In this document: positions 17,466 to 62,700 of the stretch, piece by piece | How the letters are laid out: each line of letters starts with the position of its first letter | Numbering within the stretch: the stretch's first letter is position 1 | Source: Megalonaias nervosa | Taxonomy: Eukaryota > Mollusca > Bivalvia > Unionida > Unionidae | Assembly: GCA_016617855.1 (NCBI GenBank) | Contig: JAECUM010031552.1 | Span: 1 to 64,000, forward strand | DNA: 64,000 nt | Reading direction: 5' to 3' | Program-made: the position numbers and the translations under genes | The notes under the pieces: model-generated | Databases searched by the model: none | What the model was told of the DNA's origin: nothing | What the model saw: only the letters and a program-made list of their open reading frames with translations

Positions 17466-19345
17466 TTATTGTGTTACAGCAAGCCCAATGACAAACACAA
17501 CATCCAGATCCAACTGGCGTAAACTTTTTTTGCCATCTCGCGCATAACCAGCTACTTTTTTCTTCACTGCGTTGATAATTCCTGGTGAAGCTGTTGTTGT
17601 TTGTGACAGCAGCGGGGGCAGAGCCACTGTTGCTGCCGTTGGCAACTTTAACACGACACCCCTGTGTAACTGAGATATGTTTGTTACTCTAGCTACAGCC
17701 AGATAAAATAAATTTGACGATTCGATGTGACCATGGACAATCCAGATATTTGTATCTGATATTGTTAGTCCCTGAGACAAATGAATTGTTATTGCATATC
17801 CCAGAGTCCAGCACGATGGGTTTACCGCCAACGCTTGTTGTAGAACCTCTACGGGAACCTCGACGATATCATTAAGAACGAGTTTTTGTTTCATTATTGG
17901 TATCACCAGAAATATCAACAAGTATATTTGGTCGGCGCGTATCTGTTGGTCGATAATGTAATGGAACTAGTTGATCAGGAAATGTTTCCTTGTGAAGCTG
18001 AAACAATTTACGCAGAAGTGAATCACGCAAGTTTTTCCTAGAAACAACTATTAGAAATTTGACATTGGAGTCTCTGAAATTACGGTACGCAGTATTTCCA
18101 CACTGAATTTTGTCTGGTTGTAATCTGATTAACGATTTCAGTTGTCGTAGTTGTTCATCTTGCGATCGATGTTCGTACAAAACCTCTTCATAGTGGCCAA
18201 CATAGTTGATCAACGATTCGTGTGGTGATTCACCTGTAAATGGCGGAAGCTGTCCATGATCGCCACACATGATAATTGCAGTAGATTTGGTTGATAACCA
18301 ATCAAGAAACAGTTTTAAAACATCTTTGGATCCTATACAAATCTCATCCCAGTTTATTATTCTCAGGATATATTCCTCATCCATTCGTTCGGGTGTCCAT
18401 GTATCACCTCGCCATCTAAAGAAACTATGATACGTGCATGCGCTGACACCACGTTGTCTCATATCTCTGGCAAGCCGGTGAGTTGGTGTTAGCACAATCG
18501 TATCAGAGATTTTAAATAATTCTATCGCACGTGTTGTTATACCAGAACAACCTGGACCATTCAGATAGAACGTGTTATGTCTCTTGATTGGATCGTTTAC
18601 TGATGGCGATGATGCTGGTTCTGATAAATTATCGTTGCGATAATAAATATCTGGTGTTTTAACGTCTGCGGATTCAGAATATTTAAGTATTTGTTCGTGT
18701 TTTATTTGCCACAAACCCCAATCAGTATCCGTAGTCTCCTTATAAATAAATGGCTCAAGAAAATCTATTTTACAGCGACTAATATAAAAATAATCCGTGC
18801 CGACCCTAACAGCATCATTGGAAAATATATAAATCATCGATAATAGGTTTATTGATGAGTAGGTTTACAAAATGCTCCATTATACGCTTAGCACCACAAT
18901 TTAGCAAACCTGTTTTCATCGGAACAATATCAGATATGCTTGGTTCATTCAAACGATACATTGCGTTAAAAACGTCTGTAGCAGGATAAGCGCTTTTGTA
19001 GTAGGTGTTATCTATCCCGATAAATCTTCCTGGTTTGGTACTTTTGTCCAAGATGACTAATTGATGCTGATCTTGATGTTTTACCGGATCAAGTTTATCA
19101 CGTGTAATCCACTGTAATCCATCTGGTGTTTGTTTCTCTGTTATAAATTTTGTCCTGTAAAAGTACTTCTTGTTGCCCTGTAGATGCTGTATTATTTTAT
19201 GAGCAACATTTTGATTCATTGTGGAATCTGTAAATATTCCATCACCATCTATTTTAAACATCGACCATACATGAACAGCACCATCACTGATAAATTCGTT
19301 CTTCGCCATTTTGATAAAATCATGCAACTGTAGTTCGAATGGTGG
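17466..19345 (-). pseudogene. SF1 (RecD/Pif1-like) helicase, element 1
   Basis: Three frames run right to left. The N-terminal part (to 18815) contains HDFIKMAKNEFISDGAVHVW and a segment with YRLNEPSISDIVPMKTGLLN. The helicase core has Walker A as NGPGCSGITTRA, in which the Lys is replaced by Ile, a Walker B INWDEICIGS, a motif III CGDHGQLPPF, and the C-terminal motif GYAITIHLSQGLTISDTNIW. Shifts near 18840 and 17890 split the gene. The family unwinds DNA during element replication. Loss of the Walker A Lys predicts no ATPase activity. No ATG is visible at the 5' end. Confidence 0.65.
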
Positions 19346-20011
19346 CTGTTTTTTTTATCTTTGGTTATTCTGTCAGAGTCGAACTTGGTGATGTACTTTG
19401 GTTATGTCGACGATAATCTTTTTCGTTCTCATTCAAAATAACTTGTCTCTGCTCTTCTTTAGTTCTATTTTTGTTAATCTCTCAATTTCACTCACGGTTA
19501 ATAACGATTTTATCTCACTCCGTAATTATTCTTGTGCAATTTTCGACCTTGGGAAACTTGGATTTTCACCCGATTAGACTAAAATATTATTCTTGAATTT
19601 GTTTTGCAACGGTAGAAGTAGTCATTTTTATATATAAGAACAGTATTTTCTTTAGTTGGACTCTATGCAATAATATAGTATGCATCAGGCAAAAAAATAA
19701 ATGTGATGCCTCATGATCGGATCATTCATACCTTGTGGATAAAATTATCGTGGAGAATACTGTTGATATCACATGGCCAGTGTTCGCCGTGGCAGCACGG
19801 GACCACAACCATGTCTGACGTGTGGGGTGGGGGTCAAGTGGAAGACCCAGTTATGCTTTTCTTGCGGCGGACGAAAATATCGACCGCTTAAGTGATAGTG
19901 CGAGACACAAAACGCTTCTGATGACATAAAAATAAAAGACGCAAAGGATTATCTCAAAAGTATTCCTCTGCTTAAAAACATAATATATTAGAAGAAGAGA
20001 AAATTATATAA
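19346..20011. other. spacer, no recognisable gene
   Basis: Only short frames. A 62-codon plus-strand frame at 19703 shows no known motif. Confidence 0.3.
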
Positions 20012-20223
20012 ATGGAACAAACTGAGAAAGAGATTGATCTTGACGAATTTAAGAAACATCCAATATACGATAACTACGAAACGAACCGATCTGGTGTCGT
20101 GAGACATTGTCGTCGCAAATCACCTCTTAAAATGTTAGCAACATGGGATATCTCACTATCGGTGTCGGAATTCCAGAAACAAAAAAATATTACTATGTAA
20201 ATGTCGTCGATTTTTCTAAATAA
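20012..20223 (+). pseudogene. NUMOD4-like N-terminal fragment of an HNH-type nuclease
   Basis: ATG 20012 gives an acidic start, then HPIYDNYETNRSGVVRH, the pattern of the NUMOD4 region that begins many HNH homing-type endonucleases. A frameshift near 20150 joins to GYLTIGVGIPETKKYYYVNV and TAA 20221-20223. The HNH part that should follow on the same strand is missing; a matching HNH fragment lies on the other strand at 20.6-20.99 kb. Function as nuclease is inferred from family only. Confidence 0.45.
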
Positions 20224-20616
20224 AATTTGTGTAAATATGCATTATTAAAATAAGGGAAATAATGGTATTTTCGTTCATTCACAGAAATCTTAACTTGCTG
20301 CGGATCGGATTTTAGGTTTATATATTAAATTTGTTGCTTGCTACAAAAAAAGTTGGATTATAAAGGTTTTAAGTTTTGTATTCTTGTCTTCTGGGTAACA
20401 TTAAAAGTTCGGTTAAAATTCTGGTATTGAACATCTTTCCCAGACGTCATGTAGGAATATTGCCGAATTATTATGCTATGTTTAAAAACGTATAAACAAG
20501 TTAATACGCTTTGTTATTGCTCAGAAGTTTCTTTATTAAATTTTGCCGTTGACTGGGGCAAAATTTTGGCTTTGGTTTAAGAGAGGTTATTCAGTCGTTT
20601 GAATAAGTACTTTTAC

Positions 20617-20990
20617 TCAAAAATATCCTGTGTTATTTATTTTTGTTTGTATGTTTCTGATAATAACTTTTCTGCTAGCTTCGTAAAGATCGTAGACAGA
20701 ATGTGATTTAAACTCCTCTTTCAAAGATAAATTGATGATATTATTATCGGTGATATGTCCATAAATATGATACACTTGCATTCCAGCAGGAATATCGTCA
20801 TTGAACTGCGCATAAATAAATTCGTGTAAAAACATGTCAGTGTACTTTGTATCATCTTCTGCTTTTACTATCATCTTGTAACCATCAGGTGTTAATACTC
20901 CGACATCATTATTATTTTTAATATTGATAACAACTCCAAGTTCATTGCCGGCAAATAGGTTATATTTTAGATGACATCAGAAAATCTCCT
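20617..20990 (-). pseudogene. HNH-type nuclease fragment
   Basis: Reading right to left, a NUMOD-like strand region (GNELGVVINIKNNNDVGVLT, then DGYKMIV) precedes FLHEFIYAQFNDDIPAGMQV and YHIYGHITDNNIINLSL, which has the spacing of an HNH core (His ... Asn-Asn). It is followed by a Lys/Ser-rich tail with SVYDLYEASRKVI. The N-terminus lies beyond a break near 20990. Possibly the second half of the same or a sister gene as 20012-20223, inverted. Such genes are frequent passengers in large DNA viruses. Confidence 0.4.
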
Positions 20991-21119
20991 GGCACCATGC
21001 AAGACTTTAACGATAATAGATCGTTGATATAGATTTTTCATGATATACTATAGTGTTTTTCAAATCTCTAATTTACAATTTCATATCACATTGAGCTAAA
21101 TATAAAACAATATAATATA

Positions 21120-24100
21120 ATGCTGAAACTTGTTCGTAACAAAATATCAGCCCGAAAAAAAATGCACTGCATTTGCCGGATTCGATAACAGATGGAGATT
21201 TGATAATCAACTTTTACTAACCAATTTTTCTGCAATAAATCTGCTTCATTTGCTACAGCCAGATGTAAAATCTGATCTTGCAAAGAATAGCGGATTGAAG
21301 GTCATTGTGCAATTTCATTTAAGTTTTCAAAGGTAAGTATCTCATCTAGTATTTAAGAATACAATCGGTAAGCTGCTTTTATGCAAATGTCTCAACAACT
21401 CAACTGCAATTCGAAGAACTTACCGATCCGTACATTGCATCACTATTCCGTCAAGTTTTAATTGGAACAAATTTGATGTCATTATCCAATGATACATTTC
21501 AAGAGATACACACAGCAATTGATGAAAATACAACATCTAGATCGGGCTGGAGATTTGATAGAATAACGGAAATTTTGTTTCACACCATGAAATATAATCC
21601 ATTGCGAGATAACTCCTATGTTGAGTCGCCAGCTAAAATAGAAAAGCTCAAAATGTTCTATCAATGTCAAAAACAACGACGACAAGGGTTTTTTAGTGAG
21701 AAATATTATCAGCGCGTTTTCCAGTTGATAAACACTCTGATCGAGTATCAAATTAAATCTGTCATTCCAATGATATAAACTTTACTGAAATAGATCTAAA
21801 AGTCAAATTCCAAACTTTGAGAGACAAAACACTTTACTTTTACCAGAAGGTATTAACGTGTTTGGAGTCGATTATAATACACAAAAATCTATCCGAGATA
21901 TCAGCTATCGAGCTAAACAAACGACAGTAAATTTGCTGTTCTATATAAACCACTACGCATGGATCAAAAACTTTAACGGGTTAGTTGGTGGGCAGTACAG
22001 CAAACACAAATAAAAGAAATATTTCTGAGTCAGATGCTTGCAGGGATGTAAGTCGCAGCTGGTATTAGATCGTCATCTGGAATATTGTTCTGATGTACAA
22101 CGAATATCTATGCCAGGTAAAGATGAAAATATATTACAGTTTATGAATTACAGACACAAGATGAAAGTTCCTTTTATAATCTACTACAATTTCGAGTATA
22201 TTTTACTTCCAGTATCAGGAGCAGAAAATAACCCTAATAAATCTTCTACAAGAAAAGTACAAGAACATATTCATTGAGAGTATAGCATATAAGGTTGTAT
22301 GTGCTGTTGATAAAAGTTTATCAAAACCTGTTAGACTTTATCATGGTGACAATCCTGCTCTGTGGTTGCTGAAAGATCCTCTCAACGAGGTTGATGCCGT
22401 CATGATGTTGCTCGGGTAGGACGAAGAAAATGAAAAATCTTGCAATAAAACAAGATACTGAATTTGCTTCAGCAAAAATGTCATATCTATGAGAGCAGTT
22501 TATGACTGAGCATGGATCTGATCGAGTAAAAGATCATTGTCATATTACTGGAAAGTATCACGGTCCAGCTCATGACAAGTGTAATTTAAAATATACCGCA
22601 CCAGATTTTGTTTCTGTTGTCGCCCATAATTTTAGGGGATATGATTCCCATATTATCGTAGAAGCATTCGACAATAATGATATAATAAACCGTCTAAAAA
22701 TCAATAACAACGACAAAATAAAATGCATTCCAAATAACACTGAAAAAATATATGTCAGTGACACTAGTTAAGTTTACAGTTTACGGCAGACTCGTTAGAC
22801 GAACTCGCAAAAGGATGTGGAATGTTCGATAATTTGACTGGACATTTGGGCGAAACTGCAAGCATTTTATTGACACGAAAGGTGTGTTTCCATACGAATA
22901 TCTTGACGACTGGAGTAGATTTAATGAAACAAGATTACCTGACCGGGATAAGTTTTATTCTTGGTTAAATCTTGAAAGTGCCAGCGGTGACGACTATGCT
23001 TTCGCTAAACAAATTTGGAATGAATTTTGCAAAATCTTTGCAGATTATCATGACCTGTATCTGATCACAGATGTATTGTTACTCGTGAATATATTTAAAA
23101 ATTATATAAACGTCAGCGCTGATAACTATGGACTGGACCCAGTTTTGTGTTACTCAACACCAGAACTATCCTGGGATGCATTACTCAAGCACAGCAAAAT
23201 AAAATTGCAGTTGTTAACAGACTCTGACATGTTCTGTTTCATTGAGAGTGGAAACAGAGGTGGAATAAGTGTAATAACAAAACAATATGCTAAGGCAAAT
23301 TATATGTACATGAGAGACTATGATAAGACCTTACCATCAAGTTCTATAGTTTATATTTACGCGAATAATCTTTATGAATATGCAATGTCTGAGCCGATGC
23401 CATACGGTGGTTTCAGATGGATCAGTAAATAACAGTTTTTCAAAGAAACGGATAAAACTATACCTGATGATACTGGTTACTTTGTTGAAGTTGATCTAGA
23501 CTATCCTGTTAAGCTTCATGATGCTCATAACGATTATTCATTTTGTCCAGAATCAATATTAATTGACTAAAATTTATTATCTGATAAACAAAGAGATTAT
23601 TTACAAACAACTCTGTTGTTCATAGATTAGTTCCTAATCTGCTTGACAAATAGAGATAAAATTTACACTATAAACGTCTTAAACACGCAGATGATTATGG
23701 TCTAATATTAAGAAAATTTCATCGAGTTATAAAATTTAATCAATCACCGTGGACGAAAAGTTATATTGACTCAAATACGGCCGGAAAAGCCTCTGCAAAA
23801 GCAAAACTCGAAAGTGACTTTTTCAAGCTAATAAATAGCAGCCTATTAGGCAAGACTATGGAAAATATACGAAAGCGAGTCAATATTGAAATTGTTAATA
23901 ACATTCAACGTCGTAATAAGCTTGTTGCATCTGATGATTTTGTTAGTATGAAAATTTTTAATGAAAACGTTGTCGCGATAGAACGAAGAAAGACAAAGTT
24001 GAATAAACCAGTTTATGTTGGTATGGCAGTACTTGAGATATCAAAGACGTAAATGTACCAGTTTCATTATGATTTTCTTAAGGTTAAGTGCCCTGATGCA

Positions 24101-39069: not shown

Positions 39070-39105
39070 TCTTTTCGAGAGGGTTGGGTACCCCTGAAAA
39101 GAACT
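39070..39105 (-). promoter_or_regulatory. histone-type 3' stem-loop with U7-like downstream element (degenerate)
   Basis: On the minus strand AGTTCT-TTTC-AGGGGT (39105-39090) has the six-base stem, four-base loop and the following ACCCA of a histone mRNA 3' end, with two G-U pairs and one mismatch. About 7 bases further, CTCGAAAAGAGATA repeats almost exactly the element found after the better stem-loop at 54.8 kb. It lies about 117 bases after the stop of the gene at 39502-39222. Confidence 0.55.
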
Positions 39106-39221
39106 ATTTTTGTTGACGGGGAGTTATGGTAATCTTTTATATTCTAAGATTGCGTCCCCGTCTGGCTGCAGGCTTCCCTACAGGATAGGGTCTGCTTCAT
39201 CGGAAAGAAAAGAATAACTCC

Positions 39222-39706: not shown

Positions 39707-39712
39707 TTTATT
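39707..39712 (-). terminator. possible poly(A) signal for the capsid gene cluster
   Basis: AATAAA on the minus strand, about 175 bases after the stop of the Cys/His protein gene, followed by a GT-rich stretch (TGTTGTGTTTTG). This contrasts with the histone-type ends of the outer genes. Confidence 0.4.
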
Positions 39713-40379: not shown

Positions 40380-41690
40380 TAGTCTAGTATAACTTCTCTC
40401 AAACTGTTTATTTCTATCGCATTGTCAAATTCAGTATGCATGATGACGTTCACCGTCTAAGCGAGAGCTTCTGCAAACTGAAGTTCCCCACGCACTTGAC
40501 CGGATTTTATAAGGTGGAAATGTCCCTCGTCGCTGCCTTGGTCTGGAGTGATATCAAAGGCCCACAAAGTGTAACCTCCTGCATAATCTTCGTACGAAAT
40601 GCCGTTACTGGTATTGGTTCCTAGCTGTCCGGTAGCTTCGTAAAGGTACAAGTACGATCTCAAGTAATTCTTCTGAGCAAAGTTAGGTTCGAAGGGTCTG
40701 GTACACAAGGTCTTGCCATCGCGTCTGACTTCGATCTTGGACACTCTGTAGCGCTTAAACTGAAAAGGATTGGAAGTGACGGCTCCGTTGAGGGCTGCAT
40801 TGCTGACGATGCCAACGATTAAACGTTTGCGTAATTTTCCTTGGAACAGATGATCTTTGATCTTGGATCGGAGTTCAGCGGCAATGGTGAAATTTTCACT
40901 TCCACCTGTCGTATCGGATACTTGGCAGTCGATCTGCTCAACGTGTAACTGATGTCGTTTCCCGCTTTATGTAGCACTTCCACGCGGCGCAAGTAAAATC
41001 TGGCTTCTTGGATGATTGTTTTGTACTCGTTAGCACGGGCCATCAAATGGAAAAAGTACTGCTGCGATTAAAGTCTCAGGCGGATATCCACTCCGTTCAG
41101 CAAATACTTGACTTACAACCACATGTCCAAATGCAAACAATCCATCAGTTCTAAACTACGTCCTTGCAGGATTTACTTTCGACGGTTGTTAAAGCCTACG
41201 TTGTGAGGATCGCCATCTTCTGTGAAGACTGTGTCGGTAAACCTGTCCTTGCCTGCTGTGTCAGGTTTCCATACGACGCAAGCATCCAGATGAGTGTTCT
41301 TGGCCTCTTTTCCGTACATCATGAGATTTTCCATGTACACTTGGTAAGGGTAAGTATTCATGCTACAGCTGACCAGATTGTTATTCAAGTACAATCCACT
41401 TTGCTGAACAAGGAATGCATGAAATTGTTGACAGGAGCTACTCTGGCATCGGATCCTGGAGCGCTGTCGTCCGTTTTGACCACTTTGACTTTCAAGTACA
41501 AGTAACTGCTATTCAGATCGAAGTAATCTTAGGGCTGTCCTTTGATTTCAAATTCGATGGTGGCTGAATCCGTCAAAGAGGAGATGGGATGAAATTCGAC
41601 CCATTGGGATTCTTGCATCGTTTTCTAAGTGGGTGGCATGGCAAACAGATCCAGTTCCGACTTGGAACATGTGCAAGACTCTCAGAGCAT
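40380..41690 (-). pseudogene. double jelly-roll major capsid protein, element 2
   Basis: Start ATG 41690. Motifs in order: CSKSELDLFAMPPT, QESQWVEFHPISSLTDSATI, DYFDLNSSYLYLKVKVVK, NTYPYQVYMENLMMYGKEAK, WKPDTAGKDRFTD, (after a gap) FYLRRVEVLHKAGNDIS, AKYPIRQVEV, TRPFEPNFAQKNYLRSYLYL, GGYTLWAFDITPDQGSDEGH and VNVIMHTEFDNAIEIN, stop 40380-40382. This is the widespread metazoan Maverick capsid protein (often labelled F54H12.2-like). Stops at codons 3 and about 18, another after KGQP, and at least three frameshifts; a few dozen residues around 41.1 kb are poorly kept. Confidence 0.8.
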
Positions 41691-43495: not shown

Positions 43496-44610
43496 TCACT
43501 TCTTTTTGTAGTCGATCACTAGCGAAGCGTTGATCCAGGAATCAAAATTGGACCAATATCCTTTCCGACGTACTTTGACTTTTTTGACACGTCTTTTTCC
43601 CACATTACGGGTTCTTCGTTCCAGAATGCTTTCTTCTTTTTTAGTTAAACGTTGTAACTCGGGCAAGTAAAACGTTCCGTTTAACACTTCCCCGTTCATG
43701 TCTTCCAATTTATAGACGGCAGGATTAAGGCCACGCACTGGTCTAGTGACACGAAACAATTCGGTGGTACAGTTGGGTAAGTAACATTTGTCGAAAGTGC
43801 GTTTGGTTTTGCCAATGCACACCCAATCTCCCATCGTCAACACTCCACCTTTCTTATGGACAGTCACCGTTGCGGACGTACCAAACAGACGCTCAGAATC
43901 AATCACTTCTTGGGGAGCACGTCCGATACTCCGATGGCAAGATTGGTTTTACGTTTGGACTAGGTGCGGCAAGACGTCGATGTACTTGAGAGTGTGTTGA
44001 TGCATAAAATATTCCCACATGCGTTCTTTCAAATTGCGTTGAATACGTTCCACGATGCTAGTTTTGGTTTCTTAGTGGTGAAAAAATGAATGTTTCGTTT
44101 CCTCAATTCTTTTCGGAAAGCTTGGTTCAGAAATTCAGTGCCTTTGTCGGTTTGCCATCGAAGAGGGTGACGACCACTTTGTTTCAACGCCAGTTTGAGG
44201 GCTTACACTAACTCAGTGCTCGATTTGGAAGTCAATGGCACGACCCAGGCAAATTTAGAAAAGACGTTCATGACACAAAACAAATATTTGTAGCCACGAT
44301 TGTAGGTAGCCAAATGAGAGACATCGGCTAAATCCGCTTGCCATTGATGACCGATGCCCTCCACTCGGGTGCGACTTCTGGAACTTTTTCGTCGAGTGGC
44401 TTTGTGTAAGGTGTATGTGGCTTGTTCTTGTAACTATCATTGCACTTGAGGTAAACGGACACTTTTTAGTCGGGTTTTGAGAGCACGATACAATTTCTGA
44501 ACTCCTCCGTAACCTGTAGGATGGGCTGGATAGTAGTAAATGCTGGGTAACACCTTCTCTGTCAGGAATTGTTTTTTAAAAAGTCACCCACTCTTCACGA
44601 ATGCTACTGT
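43496..44610 (-). pseudogene. retroviral-type (rve) Maverick integrase, element 2
   Basis: Reading right to left: KVLPSIYYYPAHPTGYGGVQ (start region), RVEGIGHQWQADLADVSHLA (first catalytic Asp) and YNRGYKYLFCVMNVFSKFAW, then RWQTDKGTEFLNQAFRKELR (second Asp). The Glu-containing helix near 44.06 kb is damaged. The C-terminal SH3-like part is a clean 136-codon frame from 43906 with GDWVCIGKTKRTFDKCYLPN and a Lys/Arg-rich tail. At least four breaks. It would join the element to host DNA. Confidence 0.7.
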
Positions 44611-46847: not shown

Positions 46848-47553
46848 TTAAGTGGACGACGGGGACGTGTACACGACAGGCCATCCGTCTTGGCACCAGT
46901 GGTGAAACAGATGGGTACGAAATCGCAAATTATCGGGGGTAGTGGGTTTTAAATCCACGAGTAAATAGGTGTGTGGTGTTTGAGTGGCATCGTCGTACGC
47001 ATGAATCAGTCAAGGTATTCCTAATTGTTTGGCTAAGACTTGCACTTGCGATTTATCTCTAGGGCTTGTAAACAAGACCACGTAATGAGCACTGAGACTG
47101 ATGGTGCTATTTTTGGGTGATGTAAATGACACTTGCATTACGATGATACCCTATGCGCCAAAATCAGAGTTTAATTTCTTCTTTGTCTTCTCCTAACATT
47201 TCGTCGAAGATGACCAGATGGATTTGACTGGGGTCAGACACGATCCCGTCGTCTTCGCCAGGAATGACTTCCACAAACACGATAAAATCACCTTGACTTT
47301 CTCTCAGGAGGCTGTACGCTGATTGATACTCTCTGTAACACCACACGATCCGTTGAGGTGGACGATCGATCAAATAATGTTTATGTTCGATCAAACGTTT
47401 GACAAATTCAGTTTTGCCTGAACATCTGGGTCCGGCAATTAACATGTTAAATGGATGGCGAAGATACAAGGCCTCCTAGCTGGCACGGTCTAAGTTTTCG
47501 TCGATGCCTTTGAAAGTGGAGAAAGAGGGAGCGGAGACAGCAGAAGTAGCCAT
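46848..47553 (-). pseudogene. genome-packaging ATPase (FtsK/HerA type), element 2
   Basis: Start ATG 47553; TATAAAAA at about 47600 lies 47 bp upstream. After an in-frame TAG, LYLRHPFNMLIAGPRCSGKT has an intact Walker A and IHLVIFDEMLGEDKEE an intact Walker B. A shift near 47160 leads to a C-terminal part with HYVVLFTSPRDKSQVQVLAK-like sequence (47.05 kb), PHTYLLVDLKPTTPDNLRFR and a stop at 46848-46850. Motor for loading DNA into the capsid. It is the best kept enzyme of element 2, with one stop and one or two shifts. Confidence 0.7.
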
Positions 47554-49809: not shown

Positions 49810-50187
49810 CTATAAGGTACCGTCAGATCTGAACAGTGTTGTGATGGGTGGAAAGGCCATAGAAAAGTAAGGACAGTATGGAGACCATTGAGTATGTTCC
49901 AGAATAGCTGAATCTTTATAGATATATTGATCTATACGCAACCTCAGACCATAACTGAAATACTGTACTTCGTATCCCAATCCATTCTCAGGTCCCAAGA
50001 AGACAAATCCTGTTCTAGCTAAAACAGTCGCAGTAGGTAATCCTTCCCTTTCCGTTGGCCATTTCTGAAACGTTTCCAATCGACTGGCACAATTACAAAA
50101 GTCAGGCGAGAAGACAGAAAAATGGTCTGGTTTGAACTTGGAGTTCTCAGTGGGTCTCTCACTCGATTCTTCCAGTGTCGAAGTCAT
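49810..50187 (-). CDS. BIR-domain (IAP-like) protein lacking two zinc ligands
   Basis: An uninterrupted 125-codon frame from ATG 50187, with TATAAAAA at 50221-50228 inside the 3' end of polB. The BIR pattern is clear: RLETFQKWPTEREG, LARTGFVFLGPENG, a strand reading VQYFSYGLRLR, and ILEHTQWSPYCPYF. In a BIR the two residues spaced as in YFSY are the Cys-x2-Cys zinc ligands; here both are Tyr. The His and last Cys remain. Zinc binding is therefore doubtful. The changes are compatible with G-to-A mutations. Confidence 0.6.
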   Translation of the reverse strand: MTSTLEESSERPTENSKFKPDHFSVFSPDFCNCASRLETFQKWPTEREGLPTATVLARTGFVFLGPENGLGYEVQYFSYGLRLRIDQYIYKDSAILEHTQWSPYCPYFSMAFPPITTLFRSDGTL

Positions 50188-53100
50188 CCTTCTTGTTGGT
50201 GACTATCGTCTTGGAACCATTTTTTATATCAGTGTGGCCGTACTGTAAAGTGAAGTGATTGGGACGCCGCACTCGCTTCTGGTACACGATTTGATAGACA
50301 TTTTCCAAAGGCCGACTGACGATTTGGTGTGTAACTAAACGTACAATCTTGTGAGGTTGGTAGGTGGTCACTTTAAAATCGCGATCCTTTCCAGACTATA
50401 AGGCTTCTTTCAATATCCCAAAGCACACCACTTGACTGATGCGATAATTGAAAGTCAGTGCGTTCACTTTACACTCCGCGTGTACTTCTCCTTCTTTGTC
50501 CCGATATTCGTAGTCGTAATTTTTAGGACCGCCACAAGCAAAACTTACAATCTTGTCGTCGTGGTTCTCGTCCGTCCAGGCTCCTTCACGGTCTCCTTTG
50601 ATGACAGGGTGACGTTGATCAGGGCGATCGATATAGATGCAACTGTCCGTGTCAAAATACAGCACACGATTTCTTAATTGGTGTAACGCTTAGTACAATT
50701 TTAAGCGAGCATGGGCTGTCACGTAGGCCGCAATGATGACATTTCCAAATTCTTCGGCCTCTACAAACTCCATTTCTTCTTCGTAAATGACTAAGATCAA
50801 GTCCTCACGAAGGACGACCACGTGTTTCATGTATTTAGTTTTGTCGTGAATCATCTGGAAGTAACGGGAAGGTTCTGCCAAATATTCCGTCTTGGGTAAA
50901 CAAGGTCGATGTGACATTTTGCCCCACAAGGAATTCAAGATCACTTTGGCGAACGATCGCCTTCCTCTGTTTTTGCTCCCGGTATTTCTCTTTGAATTTC
51001 TTTTGGTCTTCGGGAGTGTGGCACAAGGAAGGATAGCCGCTGGCTTGTTGTTTCAATTTCAAAAAAGGCATCCACATAGTCTGCAAAAATGCCTTTCTGA
51101 GTTTGGTCGCCCTTGTGGTATTGTTTTGTCTTGGGAAAGAGGTAAATTTCGTACACGTCTAACAATTGGTATCCCATATCCAGAGCTGTAAACAATTACA
51201 TGCTGACCCACGTTCCTCTCCAGGCGCGTTTTTCCTGGGTGTGCTGACAAGGTCGGTCTTGGTTACACGTTTCGGCACAAGTACGGCACAAGGGAAGCAT
51301 CAGTTTTCCTTGGAAATGGTGAGGTAAAACAGGATGGTACAAGTACGTGGGAGGCAAGACTTTACATTTAATCAATCCTTCGTATTGTCGAATGTTGTCC
51401 ACGTCGATGTGTTCCGTCAATAATTGTGGGTGCCCTACGGGAAAGTGACAACATTTGCACACGTAAGGATACAGAGAACACACGTCCAAGTATTAGATTT
51501 CTTCTTCAATCTCCTCGTTTGCGTGGTACAGCAAACAGGTGGCATTCGTCCGTCCTCAGTACAAATTGCCCCGCAGGTTCAGAGGGCCCACCAGCTTGTA
51601 ACTTTCCACGATACGTTTAAACTCGGGATCTTTTTTCAAACGGTGATCGTACTCGTGTTCCCAAATTTCCACCAACTGGTATCCTTGCTGTTCTAACTTC
51701 AGGCGCCGCTGACAAGTGGCCTGGTACAAGTCTTCCGTGGTACGTTGTAAAACTTGATATTCAATATTCACGTTGAGGGTAACAGGAGGGACCTCCGTCA
51801 GATAAGCACCCGTTAAACTCGTACACGATCTTGGGGTTTTCTAAGTCCCAGCCATCCACTGAATACGTTCCGATGGTCTTTTCGCCTCCTCCATTGCGGG
51901 CGTGTTGGATCCATTTGTCTTCCTTGTCGCACAAGTAATGCAACCAGCGTAAAGATTTGACCGAGTATTGAAGTTTGACAAAGTTGGTCGTTTGATGACT
52001 TATGACAGCTAGGGTGTTTTCGGGTATGATTCGTTGGCGGTACTCTAAAGAACACGCTTTGGCAATGGTGCAGGCTTCCTTCAAAGGATCGATCCCTCCA
52101 TGTTCAATCAACAGTTCTCTAAATTTTCCACAGCAACGCTATAAAATGTCGACGTTGGAACGGCGATACTTTAACATTTCTTCCTGATAGTCGAAGGGGC
52201 CCGAGGCGTGAGGGTGGTACCAAGCATAGAAAGCTTCTCGTTGTTCGGTGCGCATGTTGTCGGGGTCGTAGTAGTGAGCTTCAGGCAAATAGTCTTTGCT
52301 CATTTCTCTCATTGCAAACGTTTTAGGCATTCGACTCAAATGCATGGCCAAGTAACTCATTGAATCTTTAAACTGAACTTGTCCCACTTCCATGGAAATG
52401 ATTTTGACTCCATTCCAAGTAACTTTAGGATGTTTGGTGCTTTGGTCTGTATAGTATCTAAGAAGAAATTACCCATCGTATTCCGAGAAATTGTGAGCCA
52501 TCAATGTGGCACTGCGATGACAATCTCCATAACCCCGCTTGCTGTAAGAGGAGTTCTGCTTCTCTTCGTTGTTTGGCTCGGTCTGACTGTAACAAGATAA
52601 CCGAGTTGTGATTTCGGATTTACAACAGAATACTTCTGATGGTGATACAAATACAATGTAAAAATGATGTATTCACTCAACTAGTGAAAATGAGATATTG
52701 TTTTACTCAAATAGTAAAATGATGAATTGATTGGAGAGATATCATACAAAATATCTTATACACTCCCAAAATAATGGGTATAACAAAACCCCAAAATTAG
52801 CCCACGGCTACAAGATTACATACATGGAGTAACACAAAATACACTCCGTCAAAATCACACTTGGCTACCAGTCACACCGGTCAATCAAGTAAGTATCATT
52901 ATAGGTAGTCACCGACCACCATTCAATTCCTTGGTCATTCAAGCAATCACCGCCCACCAATCCGGTCTGCAACGCCCAATCATCCGATACTCGACCAGCA
53001 ACACTGTTCACTCAGCTCTACGGCTGCTGTGGTTAATTTCTATGGTTAGCTCTATAGCTGGTACCACGACTACGATCACCATGGATCACTCTAGTCACTT

Positions 53101-54014
53101 TGGTCAGCTCTACAGCTCTACAGCTGGGTCACTCTGGTCAGCTCTACAGCTCTACACTATGGTCACTCTGGTCACTCTGGTCAGCTCTACAGCTCTACAC
53201 TATGGTCACTCTGGTCACTCTGGTCAGCTCTACAGCTGAAGATGTGCAAGTCCCTAAGTAGACTGCTTACTGACAAGACGTTCCGTAATGTGAAGATATC
53301 ACTTTACGGTGAGGCATTTATACACAGACGATGTAGCCTACATCGCTCGTTCCACCACGATGGCTCGGGCTAAACACATATGGTCTTGAAGGTTGTTAAT
53401 TTGAACGATGCTGCGCTTTATGATGCGAAGTTCGTCCACCAATAACACTTTTCTGCATTGTCCGGTCCCTTTGGAAAGAGAAACGTGGGCCATGAACAGT
53501 GTTGCTTTTCCATCGGTGATGCGAAACTAATCGTTGGATTGTTGCACGTGTTGAATCTTGTCGATGACTTTGGAAACTCGATCCAAACAGGGGACGTCAG
53601 ACTGTCGTGATAAATGGAAAGTCTCAAGCGATCGTCTTCTCTGGCTTTATATTGTTGTTTCAGTGCGGTTAACAAATATTCCCACACATCGGTGATGAAC
53701 TCTTCTGCTTTCTCCAACGGTACGTCGGACTTGAAATCTTTAAATTTCACCGTGTACGTGTAGGCTATGGTTCTAAATTTTCTAGAGGAGCTTTTATCAG
53801 TCTCTTGAATGTGGTAGTATTTTTCATGGTTTAGTGGTGGTGGACCTTGGCTTGGTGTAGACTCCCTGGGCCTGGATTCTAGCTTATTCATGTCATCTTC
53901 AAAATCGCTGGCATGGATTTGATCCAAGACTTCAGCTACTGTGCGAGGCGATAGGTCCCGTTTCTGCCTCTTACTTTCTTCTCCTTTCGCCACGAAATGA
54001 CGCGATCGTTTCAT
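50159..54014 (-). pseudogene. polB: protein-primed family-B DNA polymerase, element 2
   Basis: ATG 54014; shared TATA at 54.09 kb. N-terminal part: FRTIAYTYTVKFKDFKSDVP, CRKVLLVDELRIIKRSIVQI and HMCLARAIVV (53.35 kb). The middle is replaced by a 0.7-kb insert (52600-53285). It resumes with TLMAHNFSEYDG (Exo II), then FAMREMSKDYLPEAHYYDPD, TIGTYSVDGWDLENPK, LYVDVCSLYPYVCK-like Pol A (MDVCSLYPYVCKCCHFPVGH, 51.45 kb), CRTCAETCNQDRPCQHT, ILNSLWGKMSHRP (Pol B), MLYFDTDSCIYIDRPDQRHP (Pol C, DTDS intact) and C-terminal VYQIVYQKRVRRPNHFTLQY. Typical Maverick/adintovirus polymerase; many frame breaks. Confidence 0.8.
52600..53285. repeat. repeat-bearing insert interrupting polB
   Basis: The stretch has no polymerase coding and replaces the expected zinc-rich and Exo I region. 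Its right part holds about 2.8 copies of a 43-bp unit (GGTCACTCT twice, then GGTCAGCTCTACAGCTC...), 53117-53238, preceded by a partial array. The left part is A+T-rich with ACTCAA(A/C)TAGT repeats. No clear terminal inverted repeat or target duplication was seen, so insertion with deletion, or satellite expansion, are both possible. Confidence 0.6.
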
Positions 54015-54092
54015 CTTAAGTGCAAAAAGATAAATGACTACATTTGAAACGCCATGGTCCCCTTAATATCAATGTCAGGACAGTGTCTTGCC

Positions 54093-54100
54093 TATATAAA
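54093..54100. promoter_or_regulatory. shared TATA box between polB and zinc-knuckle gene
   Basis: TATATAAA within CCTATATAAAGG, readable on both strands. It is about 50 bp upstream of ATG 54150 (plus) and about 79 bp upstream of the polB ATG (minus). Confidence 0.55.
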
Positions 54101-54149
54101 GGGTCAGTGTCTTCCCTCCAAGTATTTCATTCTCAAGCCTACCAGAAAG

Positions 54150-54595
54150 ATGGAAGAGCCCACACAGATCGAACTTCTCACCAGAGCTTTGCGAGGTGTC
54201 ATAAGACGGTTTTCTTCAGACAAGCCGACAAACTATTCCCCTTCCTTTCTAGATAAAAGTCAAGATACTTGCTATATCTGTCAAAAGAAAAGGCATTGGT
54301 CTTTTGAATGCCCAGACCGTCAAAAACAGTCAAAAGAGACAAAAGTCAAGATACCTATTATCATTGTCAAGGGAAAGGACATTGGTCTTCAGACTGCCCT
54401 AAGAAACAACAGGAGGAAGAGTGGAGTTCAGAACAGGAAGAAGAGGAAGAACCCAGACAGGTCCAGAAAGAGAAGAAAGAAAAGAAAAGAAGACGAGAAG
54501 AAAGTGAGGAAGAAGAGGAGGAAAAAACTGTGAAAGTGAAGAAATTCAAAAAAGGAGAGAGTGAAAAGACACAGAAGAAGTCTATGAACTTTTAA
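54150..54595 (+). pseudogene. twin CCHC zinc-knuckle protein with acidic/basic tail
   Basis: Start at ATG 54150 chosen by its distance of 50 bp from the TATA box. A helical start (EEPTQIELLTRALRGVIRRF) is followed by a knuckle CYICQKKRHWSFEC and, after a one-base shift near 54320, a second copy YYHCQGKGHWSSDC. The two lie in duplicated segments (DKSQDT precedes each). The first Cys of the second knuckle reads Tyr, and the Gly of the first knuckle reads Arg. A Glu/Lys-rich tail ends at 54595. Zinc knuckles bind single-stranded nucleic acid. On the opposite strand to most genes of element 2. Confidence 0.55.
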
Positions 54596-54720: not shown

Positions 54721-55458
54721 TCATTGGGTAAAAAAAGGATTTTGAGTTTTAATTGATTTTAGCAAGATGAATACTATCTCTTTTCGAAAGAAGTGGGTGG
54801 CCCTGAAAAGGACCATTGGGTGTTTGTTTTTTAACAAACTCAGGAACGAGAAATAATCAGCTTTAACTGCCTTAAGCCTTTGCCACGACCAAGTAGGGCC
54901 TGCTCCTGTCGATGATTTGGTAGCAATCACTAGGGTGAGTATCTCAGGCGTAGTAACAGGGTTGGGCTGTTTGGCTCTGGAAGGTCTTTTCCCCTTGGGT
55001 CGTAATAAAGAAGTCTGATACATTTGTGTCAGACTCCTTAACTCTGCCAAAATGTCTGAGAGTACCGTCACCGTTTGACTTTCACCATCCTCCTTTTCTC
55101 CTAGACCTTGTTTCTTCTCTGCTTCTTCTTCTTCCTGTCGTTTTCTTCTTGCCTCTTCTTCTTCTCGCTGTTGCTGTTGAAGGAGAAAAACTTGTTCTGC
55201 TTCTTTCTGCTGTTGTAAAAATTTCTCCAATTCTTCTTTCTGTCTCTGTTTAAAATCCTCGACGTGTGGTAAAGAAGGAGAAGGTGCTGGTACCGGAACA
55301 AATTCTTGTGAAGAAGAGTGAAAATCTACTAAATCCCAATTAAAATCGACCTCTTCTGGAAGTAGGCTCGGGTTGGTTTTGGTAGCCGCTGCTTTGCCAT
55401 CACTTCTCGTCTCCACGGCCGATGCACCCCAATTCATCATTTTCTTAGTTTCCGTCAT
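54721..55458 (-). CDS. coiled-coil protein of element 2
   Basis: A 245-codon frame without stops, ATG 55458. Acidic N-terminus (EEVDFNWDLVDFHSSSQEFV), then a long Glu/Gln/Lys coiled coil (residues about 90-150, FKQRQKEELEKFLQQQKEAE), a short helix LSDILAELRSLTQMYQTS and a basic stretch KGKRPSRAKQPNP. The last 40 codons run through a histone-type stem-loop, so the true stop is probably earlier (a TAG in the next frame at about 54872) and the end has shifted frame. Function unknown; perhaps a scaffold or regulator. Confidence 0.5.
   Translation of the reverse strand: MTETKKMMNWGASAVETRSDGKAAATKTNPSLLPEEVDFNWDLVDFHSSSQEFVPVPAPSPSLPHVEDFKQRQKEELEKFLQQQKEAEQVFLLQQQQREEEEARRKRQEEEEAEKKQGLGEKEDGESQTVTVLSDILAELRSLTQMYQTSLLRPKGKRPSRAKQPNPVTTPEILTLVIATKSSTGAGPTWSWQRLKAVKADYFSFLSLLKNKHPMVLFRATHFFRKEIVFILLKSIKTQNPFFTQ
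54774..54814 (-). promoter_or_regulatory. histone-type 3' stem-loop plus U7-like element
   Basis: On the minus strand GGTCCT-TTTC-AGGGCC (54814-54799) forms a six-base stem (one G-U) and UUUC loop, flanked by CCCAAT upstream and ACCCAC downstream, as in metazoan replication-dependent histone mRNAs. Nine bases further, TTTCGAAAAGAGATA is a purine-rich element like the histone downstream element that pairs with U7 snRNA. It ends the transcript of the coiled-coil gene. Confidence 0.75.
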
Positions 55459-55626: not shown

Positions 55627-55634
55627 TATAAATA
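55627..55634 (+). promoter_or_regulatory. TATA box of the rightmost gene
   Basis: TATAAATA followed by ACCGC, 43-50 bp upstream of ATG 55677. With the box at 55.51 kb it forms a divergent promoter of about 220 bp. Confidence 0.6.
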
Positions 55635-55676: not shown

Positions 55677-55908
55677 ATGTGCTCAAGCGTAGAATCATCT
55701 ACTCTCGTATTGTCAATGCTGTTCCGCACTGACTTACCCATGTATATTAAATCATCATGGACAATCATCCAGATCACCGATACGACCGTTTGGAAACGAA
55801 GGATCTATGTGGAAAGACAAGGCAGTCTGAGAAGATTGTTAATCTACGGTCCAAAGGTCAGACGAGGTTTGAGGAAAAAAGAAGATCCGTGCGATTCGTT
55901 CTATGTTA
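55677..55908 (+). pseudogene. small basic protein ending 28 nt before a histone-type stem-loop
   Basis: ATG 55677 (CACAAG-ATG) begins CSSVESSTLVLSMLFRTDLP. A shift near 55757 leads to DNHPDHRYDRLETKDLCGKT and a basic stretch KGQTRFEEKRRSVRFVLC, TAA 55906-55908. About 77 residues if joined by one shift. Alternatively the uninterrupted 105-codon frame to 55994 is the product, but it runs through the stem-loop. No family recognised. Charge and expression signals recall a small basic nuclear protein. Confidence 0.4.
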
Positions 55909-55935
55909 AGGGAATGATGTTAACAAAAAAACAAA

Positions 55936-55951
55936 GGCCCTTTTTAGGGCC
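55936..55951 (+). promoter_or_regulatory. perfect histone-type 3' stem-loop
   Basis: GGCCCT-TTTT-AGGGCC is a perfect six-base stem with a four-U loop, flanked by AACAAA on the left and ACTCCA on the right. This matches the histone mRNA 3' stem-loop consensus, and it sits 28 bases after a stop codon, the usual distance. A purine-rich downstream element is not obvious. Confidence 0.75.
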
Positions 55952-56085
55952 ACTCCATTGCCTCGAACAGATTTATTCAAAATTTGCCATATAAGTGTGT
56001 CTTTGTTTGGTGTTTCTATTTGTGTTATGTTTGTGTCTTTGTTTCTTTGTCTATGTCTATCCAGTCCCGCCAAAGACCCCATAAC

Positions 56086-56512: not shown

Positions 56513-57404
56513 TGTTACGACCATGTAATTTAATTACTTGTGTGTTAAAATTTGAATTCTTTTTATTCCATTTTTGTATCATTGTATATTATTATGATGA
56601 TGATTATGTTCACGGGATCTCATATTTTTGAAAGAAACATTGTGTTTATTTAGAACGTAACTATGACTCTCGGATTGCGCAAGCATTATTTTAGATTGCC
56701 GACTGGATAAACAACCGGCGTAAACGATTGGTTGTGGCCAATGTCATTTTCTAAGTATATGTGATTACATCCTGTACTGCGATTGTTAGATGATGAAATA
56801 ACCACTTCTTCGTGCGTGTGCATGAAATGACGTCTTAAATCGGTTTTAAAACACTTAGGTCCCTGTGAAATAGTCAAAGTCGTTCTTATACCTTGAGAAG
56901 AAGGTATTAATTTTCTTGTGCTGGAAAGAGCTTATTTTTCTTTACATCTGTAGAGCTCGAGATGTGTCTTGTTATAGATGACAGCTATAGGAGTTCATCT
57001 ACTTTTTAAATAATAATTTTTTCCCTGGAGAACTACACAAGTGGTTTAGGGCAAAGACATTCAGTGAAATTCATTCTAAATTGGAATAGTACAGTACAAA
57101 TTGTGGTTCAACGTGAAATTCTGGATATTTGTGTAAAGACTTCACCTGACGTCATCATTCTCCATCTTAGAACCAACTTGAGATTCAAACTAGATTCAGT
57201 TCGAACTGTTTGTTGGTAGGACGTATGCACTTTCACAATTCTAGGATACATGTTAGGATTTTCTTCACAAACCGTAAGTCCTATTTCATATTTTGACCTT
57301 TTCACCGTGTTTTCTAGGGAAATAAATTATTTTTGTTAAAACTTACAAAGCTTGTTGTCTTCACTCTTTTTTCTTGTTATTATTGTACGAGCCTAAACGT
57401 AACA
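56513..57404 (+). mobile_element. solo LTR of a Gypsy-type element
   Basis: Begins TGTTACG and ends CGTAACA (inverted ends, 892 bp). It aligns along its length with the reverse complement of 60257-61146: shared start (CATGTAATTTAATTACTTGT in one, TATG in place of CATG in the other), and shared end region with AAGCTTGTTG and CTTCAC. No pol or gag follows on this strand, hence solo. A 4-bp TTTT flanks both ends, and a ~50-bp near-identical sequence lies on either side. Confidence 0.75.
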
Positions 57405-58630
57405 TTTTAAAAAACTGTTATTTTCCTATCTGGTACAAGTAGAAATCGATCTGCACATTTTACAAGAATGATAGTCCTTGGAATAAAACAATTTAAGTGA
57501 TTAATTAATGTCTTATTACATTACAAAATCCAAGAATGAACGTGTATCCTTACATTACAATACAACACTTGCGAAAAATATCTATGAGTATTTTGTCCTT
57601 GTTTGTGGGAAACTCTTAGTCCGTCCGAGCACATATAGCTAGTTAAACATTTAGGGATGCTCCCTTATGAGTACCTAATGGCGTTATCGCACTGTTTTAA
57701 AAGTCCGTATTTGGTGGAGGTTCTTTATTTTCCCTACTGGGTCAAGCATTTTGACCTTGGGGTTCAAATTCAGTACTCCCTTCCTTCAGACATTAGTCTG
57801 TTGGGCGAGTTTTCCTCCCTTGGCCCCACAAGACGATTTGCGAGCGACCCCTGCCCTGGATTATATAATTAGAATTGTAGCTCTTGTCTAACGTTATACC
57901 ATTTTGTACCCTAACATTTAGTTGGGCTTACACCAAGTATATGATAGTTGTCTATCTTCGTGTTAGGGTGTGTGTGAGTACTCCCATTCTCTCCATTTCT
58001 GTCTCATATTTAAACTGTCCCTTTTAGATATGTCACTGCATTCGAAAAAGGTCTCCTCTAACTCCTCATCTAAATTAAATTTGTAGTAACTCGTCCCGTC
58101 TATTTCCTCTTCTTCCTTCTTCTTTCGTTTCTTTTCCATTTCTTCTCCCTTTCCTCCGTTTTGTTCCGACACCCTCCATGCTCTTTTGTTGTACTCCATC
58201 CTGTTTCTGCTCTGTTTTGTATTTTCTTCTAACTATCGTCTTTGGTCATAAAATAATTTTCTTCATCCATTCCATAAAGGGTTCCTGTTGGTTCTTGTTG
58301 GTTGCACTTATTATTGGATTCCGTATCACTATTTTCTGATGTGTATTCTCTGTAATCCTTACATTTGTTTGTTGACCTGTGTCATCCCCTTGTGCAGTTT
58401 ATTTCTCCAGATGTATTTGTGGGATGGTAGTACCCATCTTTGTTGGGGGTGGAATTGAGAAGAAAATATCATTCCTTCCTTTCTTCTCTCCATTGTAATA
58501 CTTTAAAATAGATATTTCTTAGAAGATGCATAAAGTTTTGAATTTTATATTCCATATTAACAGGCTATACTTTATTATTATATAAGTATTCGGTTATTTA
58601 TATATGAACGTACATACAGTCTGTAACTAA
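57405..58630. other. spacer with short frames
   Basis: 57405-57460 repeats the sequence left of the solo LTR. A 78-codon minus frame (58199-57963) is Lys/Glu-rich (GKGEEMEKKRKKKEEEEIDG) and unassigned. No other gene. Confidence 0.35.
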
Positions 58631-60250: not shown

Positions 60251-60256
60251 GACAAT

Positions 60257-61146
60257 TGTTAAGTGTAGACTAGTACGAAAGTAACAAAAGAAAAAAGTGA
60301 AGCCAACAAGCTTTGTAAATTTAACAAAAATGATTTATATCCCTAGAAAACAAGATAAAAAATATGAAATAGGACTTACGGCTTGTGAATATAATCCAAA
60401 TATTAATCCTAGAATTTAAAAATATAAGTCCCATCACTAAACAGTTTTAATTGATACCATGTTCGAATCTGGATGACGTTCCAATATGGAGGAGATGACG
60501 TCAGATAAGGTCGTTGTACTGGTGGCAACATATCCTCGATTGAATCAGTTTATAATGTTTCCGTTTAGAATTCCAGAATAAATTTCCACTCAAAATCTTT
60601 CTCCCAGAACTTTTATAAATATCAAGCACTTGTGTAGTTTCCTAGAGAATGAATTATTAAACTCCAAAAAATAAACGAACTTCAGAACAAGCTGGCAACA
60701 ACAATAATAACCTCTTGAGCCCTTAAGGTTTAAAATACAACTCAATAGATCTAGTAGAAAATGGCTGTTTTAAGCCTCGATTTTAGATCACATGGTGTCT
60801 CACGTGACAGGCGACGTTACCTCTAATTTGAACTAAGAATCAAATTCTCACACTGGAAATAAAAACAAAGAAAGACTGTTTACAATTAAGCTAACACGTG
60901 GGCCGAAAATGACCTTGGTAACAGCTAATCATATTCACCGATGTTTACAAGATATACGAACCAAGATGAGCTAAAAAAAAAATAGTGCTTAAGCAACGGT
61001 TACATTCTAATCGGGTCAAGCCAATTTTCCGAAAAGAGACTCAAATCCAATGAAAATTATCATTACAATAAAATGTAATGAAACAAAATTAAAATTTAAA
61101 GAATTTAAAACTAACACACAAGTAATTAAATTACATATTCGTAACA
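60257..61146 (-). mobile_element. 3' LTR of minus-strand Gypsy element
   Basis: On the minus strand it starts TGTTACGAATATG at 61146 and ends CTTAACA at 60257, about 890 bp. It directly follows the polypurine tract and lies about 137 bp after the pol stop. It is homologous to the inverted solo LTR at 56513-57404 but clearly diverged from it. The partner 5' LTR would lie beyond the right edge of the window. Confidence 0.75.
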
Positions 61147-61282: not shown

Positions 61283-62700
61283 CTATAAACGAGAAAGTGC
61301 ATCTGCAATCAAATCATCTGTTCCTTGGATGTGCCTGATGTCAAGATTATATTCTTGCAAAAACAAACTCCACCTTAATAATCTTTGATTATATTTTTCA
61401 TCCTGTCGATGAAAGTAATGGGGTTGTGATCACTATGCACAACAACCTGAGAAGGAGCTGAGCTAATGTAAACTTCAAAATGCTGTAATGCCAATATTAA
61501 AGCCAAACGTTCCTTCTCGATTGTTAAGTAATTCCTTTGGTGCTTATTTAATTTCTTAGAGACATAGCACACTGGGTGATCAACACCATTTCTATCTTCT
61601 TGCATCAATACTGCTCCAACCCCAACATCACTTGCATCAACAGATAACTTAAAATATTGATTCAAATTTGGAGCTTAAGAACCGGCTCACTCTTGAGTAT
61701 GGCTTTTAATCTATCAAAAGCTTCCTGACATTTTCTAGTCCAAAGAAACTTGTTTATTTTACTTAAAAAGTTTGTTAGTGGTTCAGGAATATTAGAAAAA
61801 TTAGAACAAAACTTTCGATAGTATCCGGCCATACCCAAAAATCGCATCAGTTGCTTTGTACTGACTGGCAAAAGGAAATCAAAGATAGCCTTGACCTTAG
61901 CATCTATAGGTTTGAATTCACTATGTCCCACAATATGTCCTAGAAAAGTTACACAAGCAAGGCAAAACTCACTGTTAGATAAACTGATTGTCAAATTTGC
62001 ATCAGTGAGCCTGTCAAAGAATTTCCGAAACGTTGCAAGATATTGTTTCCAGGTGTCGTTGTAGATGATGACATCATCGACGTAAGCATCACAATTATCT
62101 AGACCAGAGGTAATCATATTCATCAAGCGTTGAAAGGTACTTCGGGAACCCTTCATCCAGAACGGCATTACTTTATATTGATATAGTTCATCTGGAGTCA
62201 GAAATTCCGAAATTTCCTTTGCTCTTTCAATTAGTGGAATTTGCCAAAATCCTTTCAGAAGGTCAGATTTGGGGACGTACTTGACATTTCCAATTTTATC
62301 AACACAGTCATCGATTCTTGCTAATGGAAGTGACTCTGTTTTTGTCACACTGTTCACCTTCATATAATCAGTGCACATACGGACAGTTTTATCTGGTTTC
62401 GGAATAAGTATATATGGCGAACTCGTCACTTGTACAGGGCTCTATGAAATTGTTCTCCAGCAAATACTGAATACCCTTTTTCAAGTATTCCTGTTTGAGA
62501 GGGTTCATCCTGTATGGGTGTTGTTTCACAGGTTTTGAATCTACAATTTCAACGTCATGAAAAATTATCTTTGTCCTCGTAGGAATATCTGGAAACAAGT
62601 GCTCATATTCGAATAATAATTGTTTAAGTTTATTCCTTTCTTCTTGTTGCAAATGTAAAAGTTTCTGGTCCAGTTTATTCATAATTTCCTAATTTCCGAT
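61283..62700 (-). pseudogene. pol: Gypsy pol: reverse transcriptase and RNase H
   Basis: A linker (LLFEYEHLFPDIPTRTKI, then VKQHPYRMNPLKQEYLKKGI) leads to RT: PKPDKTVRMCTDYMKVNSVT, VPKSDLLKGFWQIPLIERAK, and the catalytic block CDAYVDDVIIYND, intact. The thumb has LMRFLGMAGYYRKFCSNFSN. RNase H follows with KLSVDASDVGVGAVLMQED and VVHSDHNPITFIDRM; after a TAA at about 61374 the frame ends WSLFLQEYNLDIRHIQGTDD and ALSRL, stop 61283. One frameshift near 62420 and one at 61665. No integrase follows; it lies upstream. Confidence 0.85.

Follow-up and report, generated by a model that had tools for sequence, protein, structure and literature searches.

Animals finish their histone messages with a 3' stem-loop signal and without a poly(A) tail, and the locus described here raises the question of what such a signal is doing at the end of a gene that is not a histone. 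The gene, which we call gene A, lies in the window (the whole 64-kb stretch of DNA that was analysed), for which the initial annotation had noted a perfect stem-loop flanked by AACAAA and ACTCCA and had proposed that a virus-like element uses the histone 3'-end pathway.

A histone-type stem-loop follows gene A

Stem and flanks proved to be as described, and the features of gene A are as follows:

55627-55634, forward strand: TATA box (TATAAATA), read from the sequence
55677-55909, forward strand: gene A, which encodes 77 aa where it is intact; in the window it carries a frameshift near the 3' end
55936-55951, forward strand: histone-type 3' stem-loop, GGCCCT TTTT AGGGCC, with AACAAA before and ACTCCA after
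55952-55988, forward strand: region past the stem, with a CA ending at +6, a decayed purine core GAACAGA at 55965-55971 and TTGCC at 55984-55988

The covariance-model search of the window that had been suggested as a check returned a match to the Rfam Histone3 model (RF00032) at 55931-55977, with 35.1 bits over the cut-off of 34 (E 1.8e-6), and this was the sole Rfam match above cut-off in the 64-kb window. The stem-loop has a folding energy of -12.2 kcal/mol (z -2.97 versus shuffles), and its TTTT loop is unusual, TTTC being found in 96 of the 98 distinct sites described below.

The description of gene A as TATA-driven likewise stood, as the box begins 50 nt ahead of the first ATG (55677), and a TATA at -50 recurs in 15 of the 20 loci that hold a related ORF of 75-77 aa (family A, see below). 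The statement that a stop codon lies upstream of the stem held in part: TAA is present at 55907-55909, with 26 nt between it and the stem, but it is out of frame with the first ATG, whose frame passes from 55677 through the stem-loop to 55994 in the window copy. In other copies the 77-aa gene A ends in ..CPLC-stop or nearby, 26-35 nt ahead of the stem (mode 27 in the 19 copies with the usual end), and a second frame of the window gene ends in ..RFVLC-stop at the place of this usual stop. Because the two positions coincide, the TAA is probably the ancestral gene A stop and, since the stop position of intact copies is matched by an out-of-frame TAA, the window gene appears frameshifted near its end. 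Gene A seems to be under purifying selection, with an omega of about 0.34 over 13 copies that is rough because all pairs were counted and copy pairs are not independent. A structure predicted for its product from 4 sequences had a mean pLDDT of 39.5 and was not used.

The gene lies in a decayed, probably Polinton-type element with three sites

A further statement of the initial annotation, that the element is Maverick-like, agrees with the presence of a DNA polymerase B (PolB) gene and a weak integrase match. The element, which in the window is an old, decayed copy, has the following further features:

54721-55458, reverse strand: gene B, which encodes about 210 aa where it is intact; in the window it has a frameshift at its end, and its open frame crosses the stem-loop
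54799-54814, reverse strand: second histone-type stem-loop, at the end of gene B, GGTCCT TTTC AGGGCC
54778-54785, reverse strand: purine core GAAAAGAG, a candidate U7 pairing site, 13 nt past the gene B stem
50396-52468, reverse strand: DNA polymerase B in broken frames, two open pieces of which match PF03175, one with E 3.3e-8 and the other, just under cut-off, with E 1.5e-5
47164-47475, reverse strand: packaging-ATPase-like piece, with weak AAA/FtsK/A32 matches, all under cut-off
44203-44433, reverse strand: integrase core piece of a broken gene (PF00665 rve, E 5e-4, under the curated cut-off)
39707-39712, reverse strand: AATAAA followed by a GU-rich stretch, downstream of a neighbouring gene (40457-41067 region)
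39085-39110, reverse strand: third site, a decayed stem that follows a broken reading frame, with an intact purine core GAAAAGAG at 39076-39069

The polymerase is of the organellar and viral type, which together with the weak integrase-core and ATPase matches and the numerous dispersed, often decayed copies resembles Polinton/Maverick elements and adintoviruses. PolB was also present at the predicted distance from gene A in all four other copies that we fetched (tblastn). We regard the element as likely to be a Polinton/Maverick; this filing is incomplete because capsid genes gave no Pfam match in the window element and a blastn self-comparison of the window (pieces of at least 45 nt) revealed no inverted pair bounding 39-57 kb that could serve as terminal inverted repeats, a result to be read with the caveat that the element ends may be lost or diverged.

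The initial annotation had described a single site; that site is real, but the element has three, two of which had been overlooked. Genes A and B are divergent and their stem-loops stand at the outer ends of the pair. Gene B has a TATATA about 50 nt ahead of its ATG (read from the sequence), and its stem-loop was matched by RF00032 under laxer settings at 54774-54819 on the reverse strand (30.0 bits, E 4.5e-5, under the curated cut-off of 34) and folds with -9.4 kcal/mol (z -2.0). A weight matrix built from the sites of the other copies, when run over the window, scored the gene A and gene B sites at 37.3 and 43.0, and the third site at 12.2 versus at most 6.8 in five shuffled windows. The stem of the third site no longer forms when its sequence is tested for folding, and over 60 nt its 3' end and that of gene B are 78% alike.

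By its looks, the AATAAA at 39707-39712 would be an ordinary poly(A) signal. Since it follows a neighbouring gene, which is capsid-like by position only, the element appears to use both kinds of 3' end.

Sites of this type recur behind three unrelated gene families

In the genome searched (2.19 Gb), the Rfam search scored 75 of 423,121 first-look candidates, and 66 of the 75 exceed the RF00032 cut-off; the 75-locus list is a lower bound, as neither the site in the window nor a 37.8-bit site of a host H2A gene is on it. Each of the 75 loci was read (they are 1.2-3.0 kb long, and L009 and L010 are identical in sequence). Matching with a regular expression then gave 102 sites, spread over the window and 74 of these loci, L022 being without a match. 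Single-linkage clustering of the upstream frames placed 97 of the 102 sites in three mutually unrelated families, A (40 sites), B (34) and C (23, a family that may hold more than one gene), and left five singletons.

Rfam labels these sites histone 3' ends, as would be expected if they were displaced or pseudogenised host histone genes and not the element's own. To this reading we give virtually no credence: a crude word check found no histone motif in the 75 loci, inspection by eye revealed no histone in the singletons or L022, Pfam recognised none in the single copies examined from the three families, and the genes upstream are families A, B and C, with PolB alongside in the four copies fetched. 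Histone genes as the source of the sites were ruled out on the motif check, the upstream families and the singletons seen by eye, in keeping with the original remark that the gene is not a recognisable histone.

Wherever A and B occur together, they lie on opposite strands (26 of 26 places, namely 25 loci and the window). Gene order varies otherwise, with A and C in tandem on one strand in L032. Other parts of the element also turn up: in L048 a family C site is preceded by part of the gene which, in the window, stands ahead of the third site, and pieces of the integrase or of the 53418-54014 open frame lie near sites in L064 and L070.

Among database proteins, three match gene A and 19 match gene B at 55-70% identity, all from contigs of at most 2.3 kb. 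One protein of each kind (P0001 for A, P0017 for B) may share a contig, as their contigs are equally long and their sources identical. Two others (P0002 and P0018) extend past the usual stop, with residues that fit a part-changed stem, purine core and TTGCC region, as judged from the proteins only. Two pattern scans of viral contigs gave zero matches, and two protein-guided scans of viral contigs matched 1 and 26 stretches, none of them a relative; for gene C, the protein database yielded 105 candidate relatives, none of them scored.

The 3' ends have the anatomy of a histone 3' end

Site statistics were taken over 98 distinct sites, with the proviso that the regular expression itself demanded stem pairs 1 and 2 and part of the loop. 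The closing pair is U-A in 98 of 98 and, with G-U allowed, the stem is fully paired in 36/38 A, 27/32 B and 21/23 C distinct sites. No compensating base-pair changes were found over the 98 sites, in which pair variation is one-sided. The stem is preceded by CCAAA in 50 sites and CCAAC in 27, and followed by a CA ending at +5 to +7 in 96 and by an AAAAG-type purine core starting 12-15 nt past the stem in 91. AAAGA[GTA] follows the CA in 90 sites (34 of 38 in family A), and the literal AAAGAG, which an excerpt of PMC7026596 names as the core of the histone downstream element, occurs in 29/32 B, 2/38 A and 0/23 C sites.

We also noticed a TTGCC 25-39 nt past the stem in 66 of 95 element sites (25/39 A, 23/33 B and 18/23 C), against a background in which 150 of 3072 windows of 75 nt hold TTGCC anywhere. 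In this host, TTGCC may be a component of the 3'-end signal that has so far gone unrecognised; that it would pair with the 5' end of U7 is a guess. Some sites have a poly(A) signal close by: AATAAA occurs in the stem or within 60 nt before it in 6/39 A, 2/33 B and 0/23 C sites, and within 200 nt after it in two A sites, three B sites and one C site.

The element is a DNA virus-like unit, and inverted repeats can have roles in such units, so that the hairpin might act at the DNA level or in a different RNA process (as a replication origin, in packaging or in transcription pausing) and merely resemble the histone element. The letters outside the hairpin make this extremely unlikely, as they fit the histone signal and match the host H2A gene: CCAAA or CCAAC before the stem in 77 of 98 sites, the CA at its set distance and the AAAGA beyond.

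The likeness extends to the metazoan replication-dependent histone mRNA as a whole. The six-pair stem, the UUUC loop and the A-rich 5' flank are shared with it, as are the CA about 5 nt past the stem and the purine core that follows (in the layout of the host H2A gene), the uninterrupted TATA-driven frames and the short 3' UTR. Unlike histone messages, these come from genes that do not encode histones and that sit in a virus-like mobile element.

The host has a matching H2A gene and an SLBP domain

A Pfam histone search of the genome gave 11 matches. One of these loci (L079) is an apparently intact host H2A gene with the stem GGCCCTTTTCAGGGCC, GAAAAGA 12 nt past the stem and TTGCC 32 nt past it. 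A second (L076), an H2B-like frame that reads into its stem, has the stem of L079 plus TAAAAGAA. Rfam scores were 37.8 bits for L079, 30.7 for L076 and 24.5 for L081. The comparison with the host thus rests mainly on one gene.

The RNA-binding domain of SLBP (PF15247) is present in the host, where a single contig carries it as two pieces (best E 1.9e-15). For the U7 snRNA, an Rfam search of the host genome reached 25.7 bits at best against a cut-off of 34. A U7 pattern, TCTTTTC-N0-9-AATTTGTCT, gave 186 matches versus 114 for the reversed control, an ambiguous outcome, and the six that were read among the 100 places listed held no convincing U7. In one match, from contig C5352, a stretch of 11 nt could pair with the purine core of H2A, and about one such match is expected by chance among 186 (an estimate). 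We note that the word TCTTTTCCAAATTTGTCT, which resembles a U7 core plus Sm site, recurs often among the U7-pattern matches listed and is perhaps part of a repeat.

The 102 element-type sites stand against three stem-loops in the 11 host histone loci (both lower bounds), a ratio that would suit a decoy, in which the main effect of the stem-loop transcripts is to sequester SLBP or U7 and thereby alter the host histone supply. We consider a decoy unlikely. The sites lie at a short, near-fixed distance from the stop codons: to the gene A gap given above can be added that of gene B, which is 17-46 nt in 17 copies and 47 and 50 nt in L026 and L053. Such a distance, after genes of which at least A seems to be under purifying selection, is as expected of a 3' end that serves its gene and is less well explained by a decoy. 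The corresponding omega values obtained with the ends of gene B are 0.62 and 0.89 (5 and 7 copies), from pairs that are again not independent.

The stem-loop is conserved at gene ends that were not chosen for it

Since it was the stem-loop that led to the 75 loci, and the regular expression added its own constraints, conservation measured over the whole set is biased. In the partner test, the gene B end was examined in loci chosen by their gene A site, and the reverse, so that there was no selection on the examined site. This was feasible in 15 of 23 A-selected and 20 of 23 B-selected loci; the rest had no partner gene and were left out. A stem (at most 4 mismatches of 16) was present at 33 of the 35 partner ends, namely at all 15 B ends (14 distinct, as L010 repeats L009) and at 18 of 20 A ends, those of L015 and L052 being without it; over 50 shuffles per end, the smallest number of mismatches was 4-7. 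A simple test detected the purine core at 14/15 B and 17/20 A partner ends. Related elements thus carry the stem-loop as well, with stem, CA and purine core recurring after three gene families, and it was their lack of it that the initial annotation had named as evidence against its proposal.

Identities at the partner ends differ between the two sets. In partner set A (n = 20), mean identity reaches 0.92 for the stem-loop and 0.95 for the purine-core segment, versus 0.75 at fourfold sites, with 0.86 in the spacer after the stop and 0.56-0.62 downstream. In partner set B (14 copies) the contrast is weaker, with 0.865 in the stem and 0.858 in the purine core versus 0.79 at fourfold sites, 0.725 in the spacer after the stop and 0.69-0.80 downstream.

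These values bear on the idea that one ancestral histone 3' end was captured by chance and copied between genes, functionless ever since. Near-identical stems, a TTGCC common to the host H2A gene and many sites, numerous decayed copies and a set B stem that is little better kept than fourfold sites would all be in keeping with such a history. It is nevertheless very unlikely, because in set A the stem and purine core exceed fourfold sites and far exceed the downstream sequence, and because three unrelated gene families have retained both stem and purine core.

Proposed use of the histone 3'-end pathway

That the element uses the histone 3'-end pathway, as first proposed, is supported by the recurrence of the sites, by the partner ends and by an architecture like that of host H2A. 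What we observed directly is the set of sequence features and how well they are conserved, together with the association of A and B with PolB and the likeness to the host H2A 3' end. We judge it highly likely that a Polinton-type element gives at least three small, unrelated, non-histone gene families complete histone-type 3' ends, from which we infer use of the SLBP/U7 pathway.

By analogy with that pathway, host SLBP would bind the stem of the A, B and C messages and the U7 snRNP would pair with the purine core and cut past the CA, leaving messages without a poly(A) tail. Such messages would be made, translated and kept only during DNA replication and would decay once replication stops. Genes A, B and C would then form an S-phase-gated set, beside at least one neighbouring gene that seems to have an ordinary AATAAA signal; the 3'-end signal suggests that the element times these three genes to DNA replication. 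In a wider reading, which we consider probable, animal DNA virus-like elements of one lineage route a whole set of their non-histone genes through the histone 3'-end pathway. The resulting messages, S-phase-gated and lacking poly(A), would be the first non-histone animal mRNAs with a complete SLBP/U7-type end, selected across many copies and, as the database relatives of genes A and B would suggest, probably across hosts.

If this is true, genes other than histones can enter the pathway by acquiring its signal, the element offers naturally occurring substrates on which SLBP and U7 could be tested, and there is a suggestion of how a DNA element that depends on host replication could follow S phase.

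Among virus-related arthropod systems, bracoviruses touch on histones through their viral histone H4 genes. There the gene itself is a histone, whereas the element's genes are not related to histones and resemble them at the 3' end only. Histone messages are the only known eukaryotic mRNAs without poly(A) according to an excerpt of PMC7026596, and an excerpt of PMC6303110 makes a similar statement for metazoan mRNAs with a 3' stem-loop, naming histone mRNAs only. At the level of titles and abstract beginnings, the literature on Polintons, Mavericks or adintoviruses in combination with the histone stem-loop, SLBP or U7 gave no report of histone-type 3' ends, in agreement with the initial annotation, which knew of no description in Polintons; titles and abstract beginnings on viral or transposon uses of the histone 3'-end pathway gave no such report either. 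RNA-seq of poly(A)-selected material would miss transcripts of this kind, which may be part of why none surfaced among these titles and abstracts.

Other features of the window

Several further features were seen within the element. The TATA-driven stretch at 54054-54595 (forward strand), beside gene B, holds two zinc-knuckle-like repeats, which are a repeat in the DNA too; one of them is a weak zf-CCHC match under cut-off. A 198-aa open frame at 53418-54014 (reverse strand) is without a Pfam match and has relatives in six of the stem-loop loci. A gene with a BIR (inhibitor-of-apoptosis) domain lies at 49810-50187 on the reverse strand (E 9.9e-9).

Elsewhere in the window, a second and different element at about 17466-23432 has a helicase-like AAA match at 17872-18837, and the weight-matrix scan found no histone-type stem-loop in it. 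A retrotransposon reverse transcriptase (E 6.9e-20) occupies 61662-62429 on the reverse strand. Finally, 57135-57407 and 60254-60515 form an inverted pair of about 270 nt, 76% alike and with inner direct repeats, which is perhaps another small transposon.
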